Shown in pieces: positions 2-9,070 of a DNA stretch of 64,000 nucleotides. This DNA is from Marivita geojedonensis. Lineage in GTDB: Bacteria > Pseudomonadota > Alphaproteobacteria > Rhodobacterales > Rhodobacteraceae. The notes beneath the pieces were generated by a model. The model had not been told where the DNA came from and did not search any database. It worked only from the letters and a program-made list of their open reading frames with translations. Position 1 is the stretch's first letter. Each line of letters starts with the position of its first letter. The DNA is taken from positions 124,001 through 188,000 of the forward strand of contig NZ_JFKC01000003.1 of assembly GCF_002115805.1 (NCBI RefSeq). The letters run 5' to 3'. Both the position numbers and the translations under genes were made by a program.

Positions 2-1255
2 GTAGTTGTGACGGGCTTGGGATTGGTGACACCGTTGGCAGACGGGGTCGAGGCGAGTTGGTCGCGCCTCCTGGACGGGCAGTCCGGCGCAGGAACGATT
101 TCGAAATTCGACGCGAGCCATCTGGCGACGACCTATGCCTGCGAAGTGCCCTATGGTGATGGCTCGGATGGGACGTTCAATCCCGATGCCTATCTGGAGA
201 AGAAAGAACAGCGTAAAGTCGACGAGTTCATCCTGTTCGGTATGGCGGCTGCGCAGCAGGCGGTGACGGATGCGGGCTGGATGCCTGAGGACGAGGAAAG
301 CCGGTTGCGCACCGGTGTGATGATTGGGTCGGGGATCGGTGGTCTTAATTCCATCGCCGAAACCGCGCTCTTGATCCGTGACAAGGGCCCGCGCCGGGTG
401 TCGCCGTTCTTTATCCCGGGCGCGCTGATCAACCTGATTTCGGGCAATGTGTCGATCAAATACGGCTTCAAGGGGCCGAACCACGCGGTTGTGACGGCGT
501 GTTCGACGGGTGCCCATGCGATTGGTGATGCGGCGCGGCTGATCATGTTCGGAGATGCGGATGTGATGGTGGCCGGTGGCGCCGAGGCGGCGATTTCCGA
601 AATCGGGATCGCGGGCTTCAACGCGTGCAAGGCGCTGTCCACCAAGCGTGGCGATGATCCGAAGGCGGCGAGCCGTCCTTACGATGCGGACCGTGACGGG
701 TTTGTCATGGGAGAGGGTGCGGGCGTCGTGGTGCTTGAAGAATACGAACACGCCAAGGCGCGTGGCGCCAAGATTTACGCCGAGGTTTGTGGTTATGGCC
801 TGTCGGGGGATGCCTATCACATCACTGCGCCGTCCGAGGATGGTGAAGGTGGTGAGCGCTCGATGCGCGCGGCGTTGAAGCACGCAGGGATCGAGCCCGC
901 GGATATCGACTACATCAACGCGCATGGCACCTCGACCATGGCGGATGTGATCGAATTGGGCGCGGTCGAGCGGATGATGGGGGATGCGGCGGGCAAGGTG
1001 ACGATGTCATCGACCAAATCCGCGACAGGACACCTTCTGGGCGCGGCCGGGGCAATCGAGGCGATCTTCTCGATCCTTGCGATCCGGGATCAGGTTGCGC
1101 CGCCGACGCTGAACCTCGACACGCCTGCTGTCGAGACGGCTGTCGATCTGGCTCCGAAGGTCAAGCGGGAGCGCGAGATCACCTATGCACTGTCGAACTC
1201 GTTCGGCTTTGGCGGCACCAATGCCAGCGTCGTTTTCGGGCGGGTGGATCGCTAA
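2..1255 (+). CDS. fabF: Beta-ketoacyl-ACP synthase II, 5' partial
   Basis: Condensing enzyme of type II fatty acid elongation: it joins malonyl-ACP to acyl-ACP in the cytosol. The frame is open to the left window edge and reads VVVTGLGLVTPL, the family N-terminus, so only the first few codons are missing. The active-site Cys lies in VTACSTG, the two catalytic His in NAHGTST and KSATGHLLGAAGA, and the Gly-rich C-terminus NSFGFGGTNAS is intact. mltG starts three bases after the stop, which is the usual alphaproteobacterial fabF-mltG order. Identity is secure from motifs and near full length. Confidence 0.96.
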   Translation, partial: VVVTGLGLVTPLADGVEASWSRLLDGQSGAGTISKFDASHLATTYACEVPYGDGSDGTFNPDAYLEKKEQRKVDEFILFGMAAAQQAVTDAGWMPEDEESRLRTGVMIGSGIGGLNSIAETALLIRDKGPRRVSPFFIPGALINLISGNVSIKYGFKGPNHAVVTACSTGAHAIGDAARLIMFGDADVMVAGGAEAAISEIGIAGFNACKALSTKRGDDPKAASRPYDADRDGFVMGEGAGVVVLEEYEHAKARGAKIYAEVCGYGLSGDAYHITAPSEDGEGGERSMRAALKHAGIEPADIDYINAHGTSTMADVIELGAVERMMGDAAGKVTMSSTKSATGHLLGAAGAIEAIFSILAIRDQVAPPTLNLDTPAVETAVDLAPKVKREREITYALSNSFGFGGTNASVVFGRVDR

Positions 1256-1258
1256 ATC

Positions 1259-2419
1259 ATGTGGCGTCACATTGCGTCTAACGCACTGACTTTTCTCGTC
1301 GTTCTGTTCTTTCTGTTCGGCGGCGTCCTGATCTGGGCGCAGAACAGTTACGTCTCGGAAGGGCCGTTGGAGCAGGCAATCTGCGTGCAGGTCGAACGCG
1401 GGAGCAATTTTCGTCGGGTGTCCGAGTCCCTTGCAGAGGATGGCGCTGTGTCCAGCGCGGCGCTGTTCAGGATCGGTGCGGATTATGCGGGAAAGACCTC
1501 GCAGTTGAAGGCGGGGTCGTACCTTGTGCCCGAAGGCGCGTCGATGGCGCAGATCGTCGATATCGTGACGCGGGGCGGGGCGAGCACCTGCGGTACTGAA
1601 GTGGTCTATCGCGTGGGCATCACGCGCGCCACGGTGCAGGTTCGGGAGCTTGACCCGGCGACCGGACGCTTTGTTGAAATTGCAGAGTTCGATCCGGCTG
1701 AGGATGCGGTTCCGGAAGAGTATACCGAGGTGAAGGCCGAAGCCGATACGCGGTATCGGGTGGCTCTGGCGGAAGGTGTGACCAGCTGGCAGATCGTGCA
1801 GGAGCTGAACCAGATCGACGTTCTGGAGGGCGAGATCGAAGAGATCCCGGCAGAGGGGTCTCTGGCCCCTGACAGTTATGAAATCAGCCCCGGCGACACG
1901 CGGGCTGAGCTGCTGGAGCGGATGGTGTCGGCGCAGGACCGGATTCTGGCGGAAGCCTGGGCAAACCGGCAGGACGGTCTGCCGTATGACAGCCCCGAGG
2001 AGGCGCTGATCATGGCGTCGATCATCGAGAAGGAGACCGGCACACCGGACGAGCGGTTCCTTGTGTCGAGCGTCTTCGTCAACCGTCTGGAGCAGGGTAT
2101 GCGGCTTCAGACTGACCCGACCGTGATTTACGGAATCACCCGTGGTCAGGGCGTGCTGGGGCGTGGGATCCGGCAGAGCGAATTGCGGGCGGAAACGCCG
2201 TGGAACACCTATGTGATCGACGGGCTGCCACCGACCCCGATTGCCAATCCAGGACGGGCCAGCATCGAGGCGGCTCTGAATCCGGATGACACCGGTTACA
2301 TCTTCTTCGTTGCCAAGACGCTTGATCCGGCAGATGGACACAATTTCGCGGAAACTCTGGCGGAGCATAACGAGAATGTTGCGGCATACCGGGCGCTTGA
2401 GGCGCAACGGGAGAATTGA
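1259..2419 (+). CDS. mltG: Endolytic murein transglycosylase MltG (YceG-like)
   Basis: Membrane-anchored lytic transglycosylase that cuts nascent peptidoglycan glycan strands. 386 aa with an N-terminal membrane segment (about residues 8-26). The YceG domain follows, with the catalytic Glu in MASIIEKETG and the conserved TDPTVIYG and TPWNTYVIDGLPPTPI-type stretches near the C-terminus. The start ATG is three bases downstream of the fabF stop, so the two are co-transcribed. Typical length for the family. Confidence 0.95.
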   Translation: MWRHIASNALTFLVVLFFLFGGVLIWAQNSYVSEGPLEQAICVQVERGSNFRRVSESLAEDGAVSSAALFRIGADYAGKTSQLKAGSYLVPEGASMAQIVDIVTRGGASTCGTEVVYRVGITRATVQVRELDPATGRFVEIAEFDPAEDAVPEEYTEVKAEADTRYRVALAEGVTSWQIVQELNQIDVLEGEIEEIPAEGSLAPDSYEISPGDTRAELLERMVSAQDRILAEAWANRQDGLPYDSPEEALIMASIIEKETGTPDERFLVSSVFVNRLEQGMRLQTDPTVIYGITRGQGVLGRGIRQSELRAETPWNTYVIDGLPPTPIANPGRASIEAALNPDDTGYIFFVAKTLDPADGHNFAETLAEHNENVAAYRALEAQREN

Positions 2420-2450
2420 CCCGTCGCGTGATTGATCCGGTGGGCGCGTC

Positions 2451-3194
2451 ATGGGCCTGATCGAACTGCTGTTGATCGGCGCGGTGGTGTTCGTCGTTGC
2501 CGGGTCGGTCAAGGGGCTGGTGGGCATCGGACTGCCCACAGCCGCGATCAGCATGTTGACCATGGTCATCGATCCCAGAACGGCGATTGCGATGGGGCTT
2601 GGGCCGATCATCGCTTCGAACGCATGGCAGATCTGGACGATGGGAGATCTGCGCGGGGCGATCTCGCGGTATTGGGTCTTTGCGATTTTGCTTGGCGTGA
2701 GCGTGTTCCTGACCGTTCTGCTGTCTGCCGAGGTGTCGGACCGGGTGATTTTTCTGGCCCTCGGTCTGTCCATCGTGTCTTTCGCGGTGTTGAATCTGCG
2801 CTTTGCCATGCCGCGTATTCCCGACCGGTTTGACAGGCTGGCGCAGGTGGCCTTTGGCAGTTTTGCGGGCATTCTGGGCGGGCTGTCGGGCGTCTGGATT
2901 GCCCCCATCATCATGTATATGAGCGCACGGCAGGTGCCCAAGGACGAGTTTGTGCGGGCGACGGGTCTTTTGCTGTTCGTGGGCGGCGTACCTTTTTCGG
3001 TGGCCTATGTGCAGCAGGGGCTGGTGACACAGGAACTGGGCCTTGTGTCGCTGCTGTTGATCCTGCCGACCCTGCTGGGGTTCTCACTGGGGGCCAAGTT
3101 GCGGAAGCGGTTTTCGAATGAGGGTTTCCGCAAGCTGGTGCTGTACGTCTTCCTGATCCTTGGCCTGAACCTGCTGCGGCGGGGGATTTTCTGA
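2451..3194 (+). CDS. TSUP family (TauE/SafE) membrane permease
   Basis: Predicted inner-membrane transporter of the sulfite exporter TauE/SafE family; 247 aa with about eight hydrophobic segments. The N-terminal Gly-rich stretch GSVKGLVGIGLP and its echo GILGGLSGVWIAPI in the second half match the two-repeat TSUP architecture. The start follows mltG by 31 bases, so it could be in the same transcript. The substrate cannot be told from sequence; anion export (sulfite, sulfonate or a carboxylate) is the family theme. Confidence 0.85.
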   Translation: MGLIELLLIGAVVFVVAGSVKGLVGIGLPTAAISMLTMVIDPRTAIAMGLGPIIASNAWQIWTMGDLRGAISRYWVFAILLGVSVFLTVLLSAEVSDRVIFLALGLSIVSFAVLNLRFAMPRIPDRFDRLAQVAFGSFAGILGGLSGVWIAPIIMYMSARQVPKDEFVRATGLLLFVGGVPFSVAYVQQGLVTQELGLVSLLLILPTLLGFSLGAKLRKRFSNEGFRKLVLYVFLILGLNLLRRGIF

Positions 3195-3439: not shown

Positions 3440-3787
3440 ATGGTTCTGATCACTGCAGAAGAAACGGGCCGCGCGCTTGAGACCGAGCGCGAGGCCATTG
3501 CGCAGGAATTGCGGGCCATCCGCGAGATGGTGGCGGCTCTGCGCAGGAAAGTGGAGGCCGGAGAAACAGGCACGGCCAGCGAGGCAGCCAAGGCGCTTGC
3601 CGATCTTCGTGTCTGGCTGAAACACGCCAAGGAAACGGAGGTTCAGATTGAAAGACATCGCCGAGAACATGCCGCCATTGACGGAGCTTACGGGCTTGAC
3701 CTCGATGCGGCGCGGGTTGCGGTCGGGTGCCGACTTGATCGCCTCCGCCAGTGTTGCCGAGAAGGACGCGTTTCTGAGCAGTCTTGA
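3440..3787 (+). CDS. GTA g1-like protein (small terminase candidate)
   Basis: 115 aa, highly charged and predicted largely alpha-helical, with long Glu/Arg/Ala-rich stretches and a KHAKETE segment. It sits directly before and overlaps the terminase frame, as ORFg1 does in Rhodobacter-type GTAs, where it is proposed to be the small terminase subunit. The ATG at 3440 is preceded by AGGAGG at 3424-3429, a near-ideal ribosome site. The frame stays open upstream, but that part has no RBS and unlike composition. Overlap with the next gene is 140 bp. Confidence 0.75.
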   Translation: MVLITAEETGRALETEREAIAQELRAIREMVAALRRKVEAGETGTASEAAKALADLRVWLKHAKETEVQIERHRREHAAIDGAYGLDLDAARVAVGCRLDRLRQCCREGRVSEQS

Positions 3788-6161
3788 AGAGGTGGACGGG
3801 GCGCTGTTGGCGCTGCGCTATCTGTTCGAGTTCTGGGCGCATCCGCACCAGTTGCCCCCCGAGGGGGACTGGCGGTCATGGGTGATCCTTGGTGGGCGCG
3901 GCGCGGGGAAAACCCGCGCCGGTGCCGAATGGGTGCGACAGGTGGTCGAGGGGTCGCGGCCGAAGGATGCCGGGCGCGCGCGGCGTCTGGCGCTGGTGGG
4001 CGAGACATTGGATCAGGTGCGCGAGGTGATGATCTTTGGCGACAGCGGGATCATGGCCTGTTCGCCGCCTGATCGGCGGCCCGAATGGCTTGCGACGCGG
4101 CGGATGCTGCGCTGGCCCAACGGGGCTGAGGCGGTGGCCTGTTCGGCGCATGATCCGGAGAGTTTGCGCGGGCCGCAGTTTGACGGCGCCTGGGTGGATG
4201 AGATCGGGTGTGCGGCGGTGAATAAGGCGACGAATGAGCCGAACAAGTTTCTGGATCCGAAGAGTTCGGAGAGCACGTTGCCGGCCTATGCGAACGGGTT
4301 GCGCGATGAGTTGATCCAGCATCAGTATCTGCGGGCAATGCTGAGCTATTGGGGCGATCCGGCGAACAACCCCGTATCCGGCGTTACCGGTGAGCCGATG
4401 ATCGACATGGGGCGGGTGTTTGTCTGGGCGTGGGACGCGCGGCCCTATCCGTGGTTTCCGAATACGGACGAGATGTGGTCGGACGGACCGAATTATCGAC
4501 GTGGCCACTGGATCAATGGGCGGGTGTCGGGGCGGACTCTGGCCTCGGTTGTTTCTGAGATTTGCGAGCGCTCGGGGCTGCATGACTATGATGTGAGTGC
4601 GCTTTACGGCTTTGTGCGCGGCTACCTTGCGCCGAACGTGTCTGACGCGCGGCGTGCGTTGCAGCCGTTGATGATGGCCTATGGGTTCGATGCCATTGAA
4701 CGCGACGGGGTTCTTGTTTTCCGCAATCGCAATGGAGCGCAGGCCGTGTCCTTGGCCGACGACCAGCTTGCGGCGCATGTCGATCTGGGTGCCGACGTGG
4801 TGCAGAGCCGCAGCTCGGAGGCCGAGATGTCGGGAAGAGTGCGGCTGAACTTCGTCGAAGCGGATGGGGACTATCGCAATATCGCGGAGGAATCGGCGCT
4901 GCCGGACGAAAGCACGCATGCGGTGGCCGAAAGCGAGGTGCCGCTGCTCCTGACGCGGCCAGAGGGGCGGCAGGCGGTGGAACGCTGGCTGAGCGAGGCG
5001 CGGGTGTCGCGGGATGCGGTGCGCTTTGCGCTGCCATTGTCACAGCAGGCGCTGGGCGCGGGGGATGTGGTGCGGTTGCCGGCCGAGGCCGGAGACATGA
5101 CCGTGCGCATCGACCGGGTGGAACAGACGACGCATCAACTGATTGATGCGGTGCGGATCGAGCCTGAGGTTTACCATCCGGCAGATTTCCCGGACGATCC
5201 TACGCCGTCGCAGCGGTATGTTGCCTCCGGGCCGGTGCTGCCGCTCTTCCTCGATCTGCCGCTGATCACCGGCGATGAGGTGCCCCATGCGCCGCATCTG
5301 GCGGTGACGGCCGACCCGTGGCCGGGGGATGTGGCGGTCTACGATGCGGCCGAGGATGCGGGCTATTCTCTGAACGGGCTGGTTGCTGTGGCATCGACCG
5401 TCGGGGTGACGGTCGATCCGGTTGCGCGTGGGCCTTCGGGGCTGCTGGATCATGCGACGCAGATTGATGTCACGCTGACATCGGGCAGCCTGTCGTCGGT
5501 CAGCGAGGCGGGGTTGCTGGGGGGTGCAAACCTTGCGGCGCTTGGAACCGGAGAGCCAGGGGCCTGGGAGGTGATCCAGTTCCAGACGGCGCAGTTGATT
5601 GCACCCGACGTTTGGAGGTTGTCCAATCTCCTGCGGGGACAGTATGGCACCGATGCGCTGGTGTCGGACGTGCTGGGTGCGGGGGCGTATTTCGTACTGC
5701 TTGATGGCTCACCACGACAGATTGCCCTCGCAGCTGCGCAAAGAGGACAGGACAGACACTACAGGATCGGACCAGCGGACAAACCGGTTGATCATGCGGT
5801 GTACCGGCACGAGGTTCATGCCTTTGAAGGCGTGGGGTTGCGCCCTTACAGCCCTGTCCATCTGTCGGCGTCGATGGGCGGTGCTGATCTGTCCATATCC
5901 TGGATTCGCAGAGGGCGGATCGATGCGGACGGTTGGGACTTGCCTGATATTCCGCTGGGGGAAGATCGGGAAGCCTATGTGCTGCGGGTTCTTGCCGGAG
6001 GCGTCCCGGTCAGGACAGTGGAGCTGTCGGCTGCGGAATGGATATACACGGCAGCGATGCAGTCCGAGGATGCTGTCGCAGGGCAGATTGAGGTCGAAGT
6101 GGCGCAGCTGTCCGACCGCTTTGGACCCGGACCTGCTGCGCGCATTGCCGTAAGCCTGTGA
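3648..6161 (+). CDS. Chimera: GTA large-terminase N-terminus fused to GTA host-specificity (g15) C-terminus
   Basis: 837 aa. Residues 1-185 are the N-terminal ATPase part of a GTA large terminase: Walker A GGRGAGKT (82-89) and the segment ending SLRGPQFDGAWVDE, where WVDE is the Walker B position. From residue about 186 the sequence is GTA g15: CAAVNKATNEPNKFLDPKSS, then NPVSGVTGEPMIDM and VFVWAWDARPYP, the end of its TIM-barrel-like region, followed by phage-tail-3-like and C-terminal domains. The terminase nuclease domain and about half of g15 are missing. The frame is uninterrupted. The start is TTG 3648 inside g1, or ATG 3669; no strong RBS decides. Relic or assembly error are both possible. 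Confidence 0.85.
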   Translation: MKDIAENMPPLTELTGLTSMRRGLRSGADLIASASVAEKDAFLSSLEEVDGALLALRYLFEFWAHPHQLPPEGDWRSWVILGGRGAGKTRAGAEWVRQVVEGSRPKDAGRARRLALVGETLDQVREVMIFGDSGIMACSPPDRRPEWLATRRMLRWPNGAEAVACSAHDPESLRGPQFDGAWVDEIGCAAVNKATNEPNKFLDPKSSESTLPAYANGLRDELIQHQYLRAMLSYWGDPANNPVSGVTGEPMIDMGRVFVWAWDARPYPWFPNTDEMWSDGPNYRRGHWINGRVSGRTLASVVSEICERSGLHDYDVSALYGFVRGYLAPNVSDARRALQPLMMAYGFDAIERDGVLVFRNRNGAQAVSLADDQLAAHVDLGADVVQSRSSEAEMSGRVRLNFVEADGDYRNIAEESALPDESTHAVAESEVPLLLTRPEGRQAVERWLSEARVSRDAVRFALPLSQQALGAGDVVRLPAEAGDMTVRIDRVEQTTHQLIDAVRIEPEVYHPADFPDDPTPSQRYVASGPVLPLFLDLPLITGDEVPHAPHLAVTADPWPGDVAVYDAAEDAGYSLNGLVAVASTVGVTVDPVARGPSGLLDHATQIDVTLTSGSLSSVSEAGLLGGANLAALGTGEPGAWEVIQFQTAQLIAPDVWRLSNLLRGQYGTDALVSDVLGAGAYFVLLDGSPRQIALAAAQRGQDRHYRIGPADKPVDHAVYRHEVHAFEGVGLRPYSPVHLSASMGGADLSISWIRRGRIDADGWDLPDIPLGEDREAYVLRVLAGGVPVRTVELSAAEWIYTAAMQSEDAVAGQIEVEVAQLSDRFGPGPAARIAVSL
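4188..4206 (+). other. Deletion junction between GTA g2 and g15
   Basis: Codons for A-W-V-D-E-I at 4188-4205. In intact clusters the terminase Walker B region (AWxDE followed by L-A) and a g15 segment (WxDE followed by G-C-A-A) both carry these residues. The switch from terminase-like to g15-like sequence falls exactly here, as expected for recombination at a short shared sequence. Confidence 0.7.
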
Positions 6162-6526
6162 CGCCGGTGATCTATAACGACGTGCTGGCCGCGGTTTCGG
6201 TTGTTGCTGCGGTCTCGGCCGAGCAGCGCGCCGCCGTTGTCGCACGCTTGCTGCGAGAAGCTGATCTTGCCGAAAGTCATCGTCTCATCCACGGGGCTGC
6301 CCATCCTGTGTTTGGGGACGGCAGTCTGATGGCTGCGGCTCTGCGCTACCAACGGCGCGGATCGGCGTCGTTTCAGGATCGCGAAGGCCTGGCGGCGTGG
6401 CGCTGCGTGATCGATGCTCTGTGCGCCCGGTTGGATCAGCCCGACGCGCAGCTAATACAGCGGCGGGCTGTGGGGTCCAGTTCCAGCCGTTTTGGGGCGA
6501 TGTTGTCTCCGCAGTCCTCGCAATAA
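6158..6526 (+). CDS. GTA-adjacent small protein (DUF7742-like)
   Basis: 122 aa in the 368 bp after the chimera, starting GTG in a GTGA overlap with its stop. The pattern AEQRAAVVARLLREADLAE, then HPVFGDGSLMAAALRY, matches the small protein of unknown function that follows g15 in Rhodobacterales GTA clusters. The last 30 or so residues (after QPDAQLIQ) overlap the 3' end of the convergent DksA-like gene and look unlike coding sequence, so the natural stop may have been lost. No function is assigned. Confidence 0.6.
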   Translation: MTPVIYNDVLAAVSVVAAVSAEQRAAVVARLLREADLAESHRLIHGAAHPVFGDGSLMAAALRYQRRGSASFQDREGLAAWRCVIDALCARLDQPDAQLIQRRAVGSSSSRFGAMLSPQSSQ

Positions 6527-6792
6527 CCGAAATCGCCATCATCGATCCGGGTGAGCGCCGCGTGCAGGGCTTTGCGAAGACCGTCCCGCCGCGCCTGAGT
6601 GGCTTTCGCCATCGACTGGCTGAGCAGCGCATCCTGCCGGGAGAGGCGGCCTACGGCCTGTTGATCCAGCGTGACAACCGATTGCCCGTCGCGGCCAAGG
6701 CCGTCTTCGGCATCGAGATCGGTCAGACGGTCTTTGATCAAGGCCCGAAACCTGCTGCGGTCTGCATCATTCAAAATGTTGATCCCTGCCAT
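6436..6792 (-). CDS. DksA/TraR family C4-type zinc finger protein
   Basis: 118 aa from ATG at 6792 (MAGINILNDADRSRF). An N-terminal helical coiled-coil half is followed by a four-Cys zinc finger, CEDCGD then CISCASG, the DksA/TraR signature. It is shorter than true DksA (about 150 aa) and belongs to the small TraR-like group, which may bind RNA polymerase through the secondary channel. It is divergent from cysE, with only 65 bases between the two start codons. A longer frame reaches 6885 but runs into the cysE coding start. Confidence 0.85.
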   Translation of the reverse strand: MAGINILNDADRSRFRALIKDRLTDLDAEDGLGRDGQSVVTLDQQAVGRLSRQDALLSQSMAKATQARRDGLRKALHAALTRIDDGDFGYCEDCGDNIAPKRLELDPTARRCISCASG

Positions 6793-6857
6793 CACGGCTT
6801 TGCGTTTTCGATATTCGATCCTATCTGCTATACCCGGCACGTCAAAGGAGAGATGGC

Positions 6858-7667
6858 ATGGCTGAAACACGCGCAAAACTCGCATCGGTCGATCCGGTCT
6901 GGGCCCGCATCGTCAAGGAAGCGGACGAAGCGGTGGCCAAGGAACCGCTGCTTGGGGGCATGATCCATTACTCGGTGCTGCACCACCCCAGCCTCGAGCG
7001 GGCACTGAGCTACCGGATTTCGCTGAAACTGGCCAATGGCGAGATGACCGAGCAGATTCTGCGCGAAATCTGTGATGAAGCCTTTGCGTCCGATCCCAGT
7101 CTCGCCATGGCAGCGCGCGCGGATATCGTAGCGGTTTATGAGCGCGACCCGGCCTGCCATCGGTTCCTGCAACCGTTGCTGTTTTTCAAAGGATTCCAGG
7201 CGATCCAGTGCTACCGTGTGGGCAATTGGCTCTGGCGGCAGGGACGGACGGATCTGGCCTATTTCGTGCAGATGCGCTGCTCGGAGGCGTTTGGTGTCGA
7301 TATCCACCCGGCCGCGAAGATCGGGCAGGGGATCATGATCGACCATGCCCATTCCATCGTGATCGGCGAAACGGCTGTCGTGGGCGACAACGTGTCGATG
7401 CTGCATTCCGTGACGCTGGGCGGGACCGGCAAGGAAGAGGAAGACCGGCATCCGAAGATCGGTGACGGTGTGCTCATTGGGGCTGGGGCGAAGGTGCTTG
7501 GCAATATCAAGGTTGGCAATTGCTCGCGCGTCGCGGCCGGGTCCGTGGTGCTGGAGGAAGTGCCGCCCTGCAAGACCGTGGCGGGTGTGCCGGCGCGGAT
7601 CGTGGGCGAGGCCGGGTGTTCGCAGCCTGCAATCAGCATGGATCAGATTCTGCGCTCTGGCGCGTGA
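6858..7667 (+). CDS. cysE: Serine O-acetyltransferase
   Basis: Makes O-acetylserine from serine and acetyl-CoA, the first step of cysteine biosynthesis. 269 aa: the N-terminal helical SATase domain (DPVWARIVKEADEA), then left-handed beta-helix hexapeptide repeats from about residue 150 (DIHPAAKIGQGIMIDH, HSIVIGETAVVGD). The catalytic His lies in IDHAHS and MLHSVTLGGTGK. A ribosome site (AGGAGAGA) lies 6-13 bases before the ATG. Monocistronic by context, followed by a cluster of hairpins. Confidence 0.96.
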   Translation: MAETRAKLASVDPVWARIVKEADEAVAKEPLLGGMIHYSVLHHPSLERALSYRISLKLANGEMTEQILREICDEAFASDPSLAMAARADIVAVYERDPACHRFLQPLLFFKGFQAIQCYRVGNWLWRQGRTDLAYFVQMRCSEAFGVDIHPAAKIGQGIMIDHAHSIVIGETAVVGDNVSMLHSVTLGGTGKEEEDRHPKIGDGVLIGAGAKVLGNIKVGNCSRVAAGSVVLEEVPPCKTVAGVPARIVGEAGCSQPAISMDQILRSGA

Positions 7668-7786: not shown

Positions 7787-9070
7787 TCAGGCCAGCATGG
7801 CCATCGGGTTTTCCAGATTGTCGACAATGACTTGCAGCAGTTCTGCGCCGAGGGCGCCGTCGATCACGCGGTGATCCACGGACAGTGTCATGGACATGAC
7901 CGTTGCGACTTTGACGGTGCCGTCTTCGCCAACCACCGGTTTTTTCAGGCCTGCCCCGACTGCGAGGATGGCGCCATGCGGCGGGTTGATGACAGCGTCG
8001 AAGTTTTCGATGCCGAACATCCCGAGGTTGGAGATGGCAAAGCTGCCGCCCTGGTATTCATGCGGCGCGAGTTTGCGGTCGCGGGCGCGGGTGGCGAGGT
8101 CTTTCATTTCAGACGAGAGCGCAGAAAGGGATTTCTGGTGCGCGTCTTTCAGAACGGGTGTGAAGAGACCGCCTTCGATGGCGACGGCCACAGCCACATC
8201 CGAGGGTTCGAGTTGCAGAATGCGGTCGCCCGCCCAGACGGCATTGGCGGCGGGTACCTGTTGCAGAGCCAGCGCGCAGGCTTTGATGATGAAGTCATTC
8301 ACGCTGAGTTTGACGCCGCGCTTTTCGAGCTGTGCGTTGAGCTGGGCACGGAAAGCCATGAGAGGGTCGAGGGTGACGGACCGGCGCAGGTAGAAATGCG
8401 GGATGGTCTGTTTGGCCTCGGACAGACGTGCGGCGATGGTCTTGCGCATGCCGTCGAGCGGCAGTTCGTTATAGGCGCGGCCTTCGTACATGCGGGCGAT
8501 GGCGTTGGCATCGACCGGTTTTGCGGCCGGCGTCGGATCGGCGGCGGCAGGTGCGGCGGCTTGGGCCGGGGCGGCGGAGGGTTGCGCGCTGGCGCCTTCG
8601 ACATCGGCTTTGACAATGCGTCCGCGCGGGCCGGAGCCTGTGATCTGGCTCAGATCGAGCCCTTTCTCGGCGGCGATGCGGCGGGCGAGGGGGGAGGCGA
8701 AGACGCGGTCACCGCTTTTGGCCGGCGCAGGGGGCGCGGCAGTGGGTGTGGATGCGTCTTCGGCGGGTTTGGCCGGGGCCGCTTGTGGAGTGGGGGCCGG
8801 TGCAGCGTCGAGATCGTCGGCGCTTTCGCCGTCTTCGAGCAGCATCGCGATGGGGGTGTTGACCTTTACGTCTGCGGTACCTTCGGCAACGAGGATCTTG
8901 CCGATCACACCTTCATCGACGGCTTCGACTTCCATCGTCGCCTTGTCGGTTTCGATCTCGGCGATCACATCGCCGGATGACACCGCGTCGCCTTCCTTGA
9001 CCAGCCATTTTGCCAGCGTGCCTTCCTCCATCGTGGGGGAGAGGGCGGGCATGAGGATTTCGATTGGCAT
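7787..9070 (-). CDS. pdhC: Pyruvate dehydrogenase complex E2 (dihydrolipoamide acetyltransferase)
   Basis: Core of the pyruvate dehydrogenase complex; transfers acetyl from lipoamide to CoA. 427 aa: an N-terminal lipoyl domain with the lipoyl-Lys in [13 protein letters not shown], then an Ala/Pro-rich linker. The peripheral subunit-binding domain comes next ([14 protein letters not shown] through [10 protein letters not shown]), then the catalytic acyltransferase domain ending in [14 protein letters not shown], with the active-site His and Asp. Last gene of the pdh operon on this strand; it starts two bases beyond the small upstream gene. Full length. Confidence 0.96.

Follow-up and report, generated by a model that had tools for sequence, protein, structure and literature searches.

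A gene transfer agent cluster reduced to a terminase-baseplate chimera, with the same junction in 28 Rhodobacteraceae genomes

Introduction

Gene transfer agents (GTAs) are virus-like particles, made by some bacteria, in which DNA passes from cell to cell. Those of the RcGTA-like, alphaproteobacterial type I kind are encoded by head-tail clusters, and passages of PMC9662315 and PMC6854486 put the DNA carried by an RcGTA particle at ~4 kb. Loss of such clusters has also been described, with passages of PMC10883770 reporting pseudogenised or absent clusters, scattered over lineages, that are discussed there as possible cheater lineages. A standing question is how GTA production persists in the face of cheaters that produce no particles. 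Here we describe the remnant of a GTA cluster in a stretch of 64,000 nucleotides from Marivita geojedonensis (contig NZ_JFKC01000003.1, positions 124,001 to 188,000; hereafter the window), in which the gene for the GTA large terminase (g2) runs directly into the second half of the gene for the GTA baseplate protein (g15, the 'megatron').

This locus is of the same kind as RcGTA-like clusters, with which it shares flanking genes, homology to g2 and g15 and a retained gene for the activator GafA; the g15 part of the chimera is 53% identical over 241 columns to chain 6tba_8A of the RcGTA virion. Unlike those clusters, it is without ~11.4 kb reaching from mid-g2 to mid-g15. Comparable loci are scattered over lineages as in the described cases of GTA gene loss, but differ from them in sharing one in-frame, codon-exact junction in many genomes. 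A literature search, which left most subscription journals outside its reach, found no description of this chimera. A more distant parallel is provided by R-gene deletions in Arabidopsis, which are ancient presence/absence polymorphisms with a shared deletion junction. There too a deletion junction is common to divergent backgrounds, whereas the chimera spans bacterial genera and lacks the raised divergence near the junction that would be expected in such a case.

Structure of the chimeric locus

The fusion consists of the following features (window coordinates).

3648 to 6161, + strand: chimeric frame of 837 aa, counted from TTG as an uncertain start codon, within an open frame of 846 codons; no internal stop
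3648 to 4199, + strand: g2 part, covering the N-terminal portion of the GTA large terminase, with Terminase_6N; the remainder of g2 is gone
4197 to 4202, + strand: junction, placed by sequence comparison with relatives; GAT (D, from g2), then GAG (E, the shared codon), after which the frame continues as g15
4200 to 6161, + strand: g15 part, C-terminal half of the GTA baseplate protein, with the last third of the TIM-barrel domain, Phage-tail_3 and Rcc01698_C

A sequence-only reading of the window had described this frame as g2 up to Walker B followed by the C-terminal half of g15, open and without a stop, and Pfam and NCBIfam searches together with alignment to intact relatives bear out both points. 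Pfam places Terminase_6N at residues 80-186 and GTA_TIM at 176-271 (profile positions 204-299 of 299), followed by Phage-tail_3 and Rcc01698_C. The NCBIfam megatron model aligns residues 178-834 with profile positions 641-1298 of 1299 at 783.5 bits, under its cut-off of 800; from residue 185 on the frame is g15, and represents only the C-terminal part of a full-length g15 of ~1300 aa with a complete TIM barrel. In the g2 part we take GGRGAGKT to be Walker A, and WVD together with the next codon's E (AWVDE in the window) to be Walker B. This part is 97% identical over 164 residues to g2 of an intact Marivita genome (G013 among our genome labels, with the window genome as G000), and the g15 part is 84-85% identical to intact Marivita g15 of G013, G012 and G008. 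The sequence departs from g2 after residue 184, and g2 motif III and the nuclease domain are absent from the chimera.

The extent of the loss was measured in 17 Marivita genomes, the window genome included. DNA of the chimeric frame was matched in 16 of these. The match splits at window positions 4200-4202 in all 15 matching relatives, and in the 12 that have both halves on one contig the two junction points lie 11,084-11,539 bp apart. g2 and g15 lie on separate contigs in G006 (loci L048-L049), G011 (L046-L047) and G016 (L044-L045), while G014 (4.7 Mb, 94% complete) is the sole searched member of the genus without a DNA match to either gene. When the ~11 kb interior of the G013 cluster was compared with the window assembly (4.31 Mb, 73 contigs, 100% complete), no DNA match appeared outside the two flanks, and a GTA capsid searched for in the same genome was not found. 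By these searches the window genome lacks the portal, capsid and tail genes of a functional RcGTA-like cluster. Judging by sequence, the chimera is what a deletion of ~11.4 kb has left of a GTA head-tail cluster, the Walker B aspartate codon being joined to a glutamate codon in the g15 TIM barrel. Since mid-g2 to mid-g15 is gone, no particle should be made. The clean in-frame deletion proposed by the sequence-only reading, at an estimated 11-13 kb, therefore stands, but its explanation by a short shared sequence does not, as homology between the two points is not special (see below).

The same junction in 28 genomes of the family

A junction at the same place is present in 28 genomes belonging to 21 genera of Rhodobacteraceae, that is, in 27 genomes beyond the window genome. 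The codon boundary is identical in 27 of the 28, with g2 ending WxD and g15 following as E-x-GC; the remaining genome (G456) has damage in the glutamate codon and in the frame immediately behind it, and the two parts still meet at the same place. The searches covered one genome per species and were aimed at this architecture, so that other fusions were not counted systematically. A first search of 394 family genomes, about one per genus, gave at least 14 with a single match over nearly the whole frame. A second search, in which a junction-spanning query was run against 390 genomes, returned 18 chimeras as the 18 best-scoring genomes, with a match spanning both sides (partly so in G537), and the next-best matches covered one side only, a few of them running slightly past the site. 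Inspection of 30 chosen genomes added G155 and G456. After later additions the frequency is 17 of 394 and 19 of 390, or 4-5% of sampled genomes. The same two points of the same two genes in 28 species is a coincidence beyond ordinary random deletion.

The genomic setting of the chimeras is also shared. MltG-like and CysE-like genes both lie near the chimera in 25 of the 28, with the CysE side only in G086 and G440 and the MltG side only in G155. A read artefact in the window assembly, where the locus is internal to one contig, is unlikely because the same junction occurs in other assemblies, six of the chimeras (G120, G440, G071, G557, G410 and G463) sitting in contigs of 3.2-4.2 Mb. A GTA capsid search in 17 of the chimera genomes gave no match in 13 (nine of these judged among the matches listed), and the weak matches in G086, G108, G160 and G354 (E 1e-21 to 1e-57) were taken for other phages. 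A junction pattern that recovers 26 of the 28 chimeras from the collected loci matched 2 of 385 genomes sampled for other families of the class; both were among the five Rhodobacteraceae in that sample, leaving 0 of 380 outside the family, where no intact-site control pattern was run.

These counts bear on the account in which one slip at a short stretch of shared sequence is confined to this lineage. One deletion would suffice for the window genome, and the GAG codon is indeed shared, but with the same junction in 20 other genera and unremarkable homology at the site such an origin is extremely improbable, and as a general account it is refuted.

An artefact of data handling was also considered, in which a protein-aware computational step removed the segment before or inside the collections used. 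The codon boundary is exact irrespective of the DNA sequence, as such a step would leave it, and contigs of two further genomes, G048 (30,468 bp) and G174 (4,597 bp), begin exactly at the g15 GAA codon where chimeras resume. The 36-base junction pattern has no match in the separate viral_contigs collection. However, viral_contigs holds virus-like contigs, among which remnants are not expected. Moreover, masked stretches would read N whereas joined sequence is seen, other genomes show other deletions, and three of four broken chimeras have a shortened GafA, as in real gene loss and as in the GTA losers G139, G019 and G192. We therefore regard an artefact as very unlikely.

No distinguishing homology at the two points

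In the Marivita relatives the g2 site reads AWVD/ELAKW (ELAKW with small changes) and the g15 site WFT/EIGCAA, the slash marking the junction. Since g2 reads AWVDE and g15 WFTE, the WVDE of the chimera derives from g2, and only the glutamate codon is common to both. Among non-chimeric sites (102 for g2 and 102 readable for g15, counts that include remnants of other kinds, two more contigs starting at the site), g15 has WFTE in 89 of 102 and WVDE in none, and g2 has WVDE in 78 of 102. The proposal that both parents carry WVDE was thus mistaken.

The DNA offers little to single out these points. The two sites have 2-3 bp in common at the join in the Marivita relatives shown, and the exact run across it is 2-7 bp in 15 pairs of a chimera and its nearest intact relative. 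Median values over 86 intact clusters are 10 matches in 19 positions between the two sites and an exact run of 3 bp; among 5,538,000 position pairs, a median of 95,279 do as well or better, 45,011 of them in the same codon phase. Even in the best cases (G098, G404 and G041), with 14 of 19 matches and runs of 8-9 bp, 372-1,066 pairs are still as good. Synonymous positions at the junction vary among chimeras, and the better-matching Leu codon after the junction is not enriched in them (11/27 versus 50/104 other g15 sites). A microhomology hotspot was rejected on the grounds of these short runs, the many thousand equally good pairs and the absence of Leu codon enrichment.

Phylogenetic scatter and local flanks

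On protein trees the chimeras are scattered over the family nearly at random. Chimera-only clades number 24 on the tree of the g15 half (137 tips, 28 chimeras), where shuffled labels give a mean of 26.1 and a minimum of 21; 24 on that of the g2 half (129 tips, 28 chimeras; shuffled mean 26.1); 24 on that of CysE (131 tips, 27 chimeras; shuffled mean 25.1); and 22 on that of MltG (95 tips, 26 chimeras; shuffled mean 23.9), although the choice of many intact tips for being congeners of a chimera biases the result towards scatter, and support is weak at many nodes. Chimeras have intact congeners next to them, for example G437 by G444, G417 and G469 by G410, G541 by G354, G612 by G156, and G409 by G257, and the five chimeras of genus g44 are interspersed with intact G590, G580 and others. 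A few chimeras pair on the trees: G557 with G617, G233 with G095, G108 with G153, and G463 with G456. Such scatter with intact congeners in between points to polymorphism or frequent exchange rather than old fixation. Old fixed families of chimeras were rejected for g378, g141 and g339, in which added intact congeners fall between chimeras.

The sequence next to the junction is local as well. Wherever an intact congener can be compared, the adjacent residues match the chimera's own lineage; for example, ETGCPAVDLGANAPNL stands at the junction in both chimera G354 and its intact congener G541. A single spreading allele that carried its donor's flanks was rejected, as the codon after the junction is that of the own lineage and there is no shared haplotype.

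Taken plainly, the trees would say that a recombinase-like or replicative process has joined these two points de novo about 24 times, since each chimera consists of its own lineage's g2 and g15 with no trace of a shared allele. The GTA interior of Rhodobacteraceae would in that case be subject to a codon-exact, homology-free recurrent excision that turned producers into non-producers in ~24 lineages and left an open terminase-baseplate chimera, a proposition that we hold to be doubtful. Against recurrent deletion stand the lack of any distinguishing motif or homology in the DNA, with variable synonymous positions, and the Leu codon counts given above, and we consider it unlikely, though a serious candidate. 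If the junction does form anew each time, it would reveal an unknown precise deletion process.

Frames, decay and the GafA activator

As far as seen, the frame is unbroken in 24 of the 28 chimeras (that of G155 is cut by a contig end) and broken in G329, G071, G537 and G456. Substitutions in the chimera, which the sequence-only reading had put forward as a check, are not clearly different from those in intact sisters. In triples of a chimera with an intact sister, some of which share members, the ratio of nonsynonymous to synonymous changes (N/S) in the g15 half is 437/1304 on chimera branches and 357/1234 on intact sister branches (19 triples, p 0.07), and in the g2 half 51/285 and 63/298 (17 triples, p 0.47). 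Five g44 triples have more amino-acid changes in the chimeras and two Marivita triples the reverse. The ratio of nonsynonymous to synonymous substitution rates (dN/dS) is 0.05-0.11 between g378 chimeras and between G557 and G617; it was set aside as proof of function, as the divergence in g378 mostly predates the deletions. The remnants are thus either recent or kept clean, with no sign of special preservation.

The GafA activator, for which we take DUF6456 as the marker, is found in all 28 chimera genomes (in the window genome at G000:C23:300614-301003, E 3.2e-45). Of 38 other genomes searched, 37 have it too, including some that lack GTA genes, which makes the mere presence of GafA uninformative for the most part. 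The three shortest GafA frames among the 28, of 198, 300 and 281 aa, are those of the broken chimeras G329, G071 and G537, respectively, and GafA frames are short or contain a stop in G139, G019 and G192. GafA of the broken chimera G456 is normal, and that of intact G012 is shorter and lies at a contig start. Older GTA losses seem to decay together, remnant along with GafA.

The exact junction might also result from convergent selection, if among very many deletions only the one that preserves Walker B and its register with the g15 strand were advantageous. In favour of this, the junction is exact in the protein, after WxD and before ExGC, while the synonymous DNA varies, and most frames are unbroken. 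An alignment of 23 unbroken chimeras shows K88, T89, D184 and E185 to be invariant, as are G82, G83, R84, A86 and G87, with G85 nearly so. However, four frames are broken, chimera branches do not have a clearly lower N/S than those of intact sisters, and there are no large chimera clades. The AlphaFold model of the chimera (mean predicted local distance difference test, pLDDT, 70.8; predicted template modelling score 0.42) shows no exact fold directly past the junction, where pLDDT is mostly <50 over residues 185-294. Residues 1-34, 46-87, 185-227 and 256-294 are among those with pLDDT <50, which makes the terminase part weak too, and a fold comparison ranks the R4C baseplate and the RcGTA virion highest. 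With no confident structure after the junction, the fold of the chimera was not supported as the reason for its exactness, and convergent selection appears quite unlikely.

Origin of the junction

To account for the recurrence, position, scatter and local flanks of the junction and its lack of special homology, we infer that most chimeras may represent one old, irreparable GTA-null deletion allele that persists as a presence/absence polymorphism while intact local alleles overwrite its flanks. We put this forward tentatively, as a possible reading and the best at hand. The null allele would be identical by descent at the junction only. It would move between lineages by recombination, with non-producers persisting among producers, while DNA from intact producers would replace both flanks as far as the start of the heterology. 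Strand exchange stops at heterology. As RcGTA carries ~4 kb of DNA, according to the passages cited above, and the gap is 11.4 kb, the flanks could be overwritten whereas the gap could not be refilled, which would make the deletion irreparable. Overwriting would also keep the frame of the remnant open and local in sequence with no function needed, and the remnant would decay once intact neighbours are gone.

Several lines of evidence point to such an allele: the same codon boundary without special DNA homology suggests one event, the scatter among intact congeners suggests polymorphism or frequent exchange, the flanks are those of the local lineage up to the codon after the junction, the substitution pattern on chimera branches is close to that on intact sister branches, and older losses seem to decay together with GafA. 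The contig starts of G048 and G174 could represent an assembly fork between intact and deleted alleles, and are suggestive only.

Several observations weigh against a single old allele. The fork lacks its other arm: no g2 N-terminal match was found in G048 or G174 and no MltG match in G048, and the MltG-like gene of G174 (L391, G174:C105) is followed, where many relatives have the GTA cluster, by what we presume are sox-like sulfur-oxidation genes and by no GTA genes. An ancient balanced presence/absence polymorphism should show raised divergence or a shared haplotype by the junction, and neither is seen. Divergence from congeners near the junction is not raised over all genera, being somewhat raised in genus g56 alone, on the right side, and over 6 codons on either side chimeras and the rest have between-genus synonymous mismatches of 0.482 and 0.484, respectively. 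No foreign flank was seen in the chimeras, though recent spread would predict such flanks. With one genome per species sampled, both alleles in one species, and hence the polymorphism, were not seen directly. The viral_contigs collection yielded no intact clusters of the same species as a chimera, either with four of the 28 chimeras as queries (best 88% protein identity) or in a comparison of all 28 with 120 of its contigs (best 91% DNA identity). The main weakness is that, with no shared haplotype left by the junction, overwriting would need to have come within a few bp of it in every lineage; otherwise a site-exact recurrent mechanism is what would be left.

If the junction does descend from one old allele, it would constitute a presence/absence polymorphism older than genera and kept local by the GTA's own gene transfer. 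Present in 4-5% of the sampled genomes, a single recognisable null allele can be scored as a marker in strains and metagenomes, making the gain, loss and frequency of non-producers measurable.

Neighbouring genes and other losses

The chimera of the window is flanked by the following features.

8 to 3194, + strand: left flank, FabF-like, MltG-like and TauE-like frames
3440 to 3787, + strand: g1-like frame, 115 aa, in the position of the GTA small terminase, upstream of the chimera and overlapping it
6158 to 6526, + strand: DUF7742 protein, 122 aa, directly 3' of the chimera (PF24891, E 1.1e-21)
6436 to 7667: right flank, DksA/TraR-like frame (- strand) and CysE-like frame (+ strand)

The names of the flanking frames other than DUF7742 and the g1-like frame are those we presume from the sequence. 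The g1-like frame occupies the same place in intact locus L032; in profile searches every family model fell below cut-off for it, and it is called a small terminase from its position and from passages of PMC6854486. DksA/TraR-like and CysE-like genes also adjoin chimeras in other genera.

A DUF2793 gene, an assignment tested (PF10983) on L104 only, at 8100-8807, lies directly downstream of the remnant or of g15, before CysE, at 11 of the 27 chimera loci and at 6 of the 104 other loci. This neighbour was rejected as a driver of loss: intact congeners in three of those genera carry the gene too, which makes shared ancestry the likelier reason, and DUF2793 downstream of g15 is probably a feature of certain genera.

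Remnants of the kind already described for GTA loss, with other junctions judged from alignment ends rather than mapped to the base, occur in G019, G061, G092, G139, G226, G256, G449, G650 and more. Other deletions thus occur, and one junction stands out with 28 cases. In G061 (L251, 977 aa) and G226 (L252, 1083 aa), g2 and the C-terminal part of g15 are likewise in one open frame, joined at other points. Additionally, G094 apparently has two GTA clusters, with two g15 and two capsid matches on G094:C175 and G094:C33.

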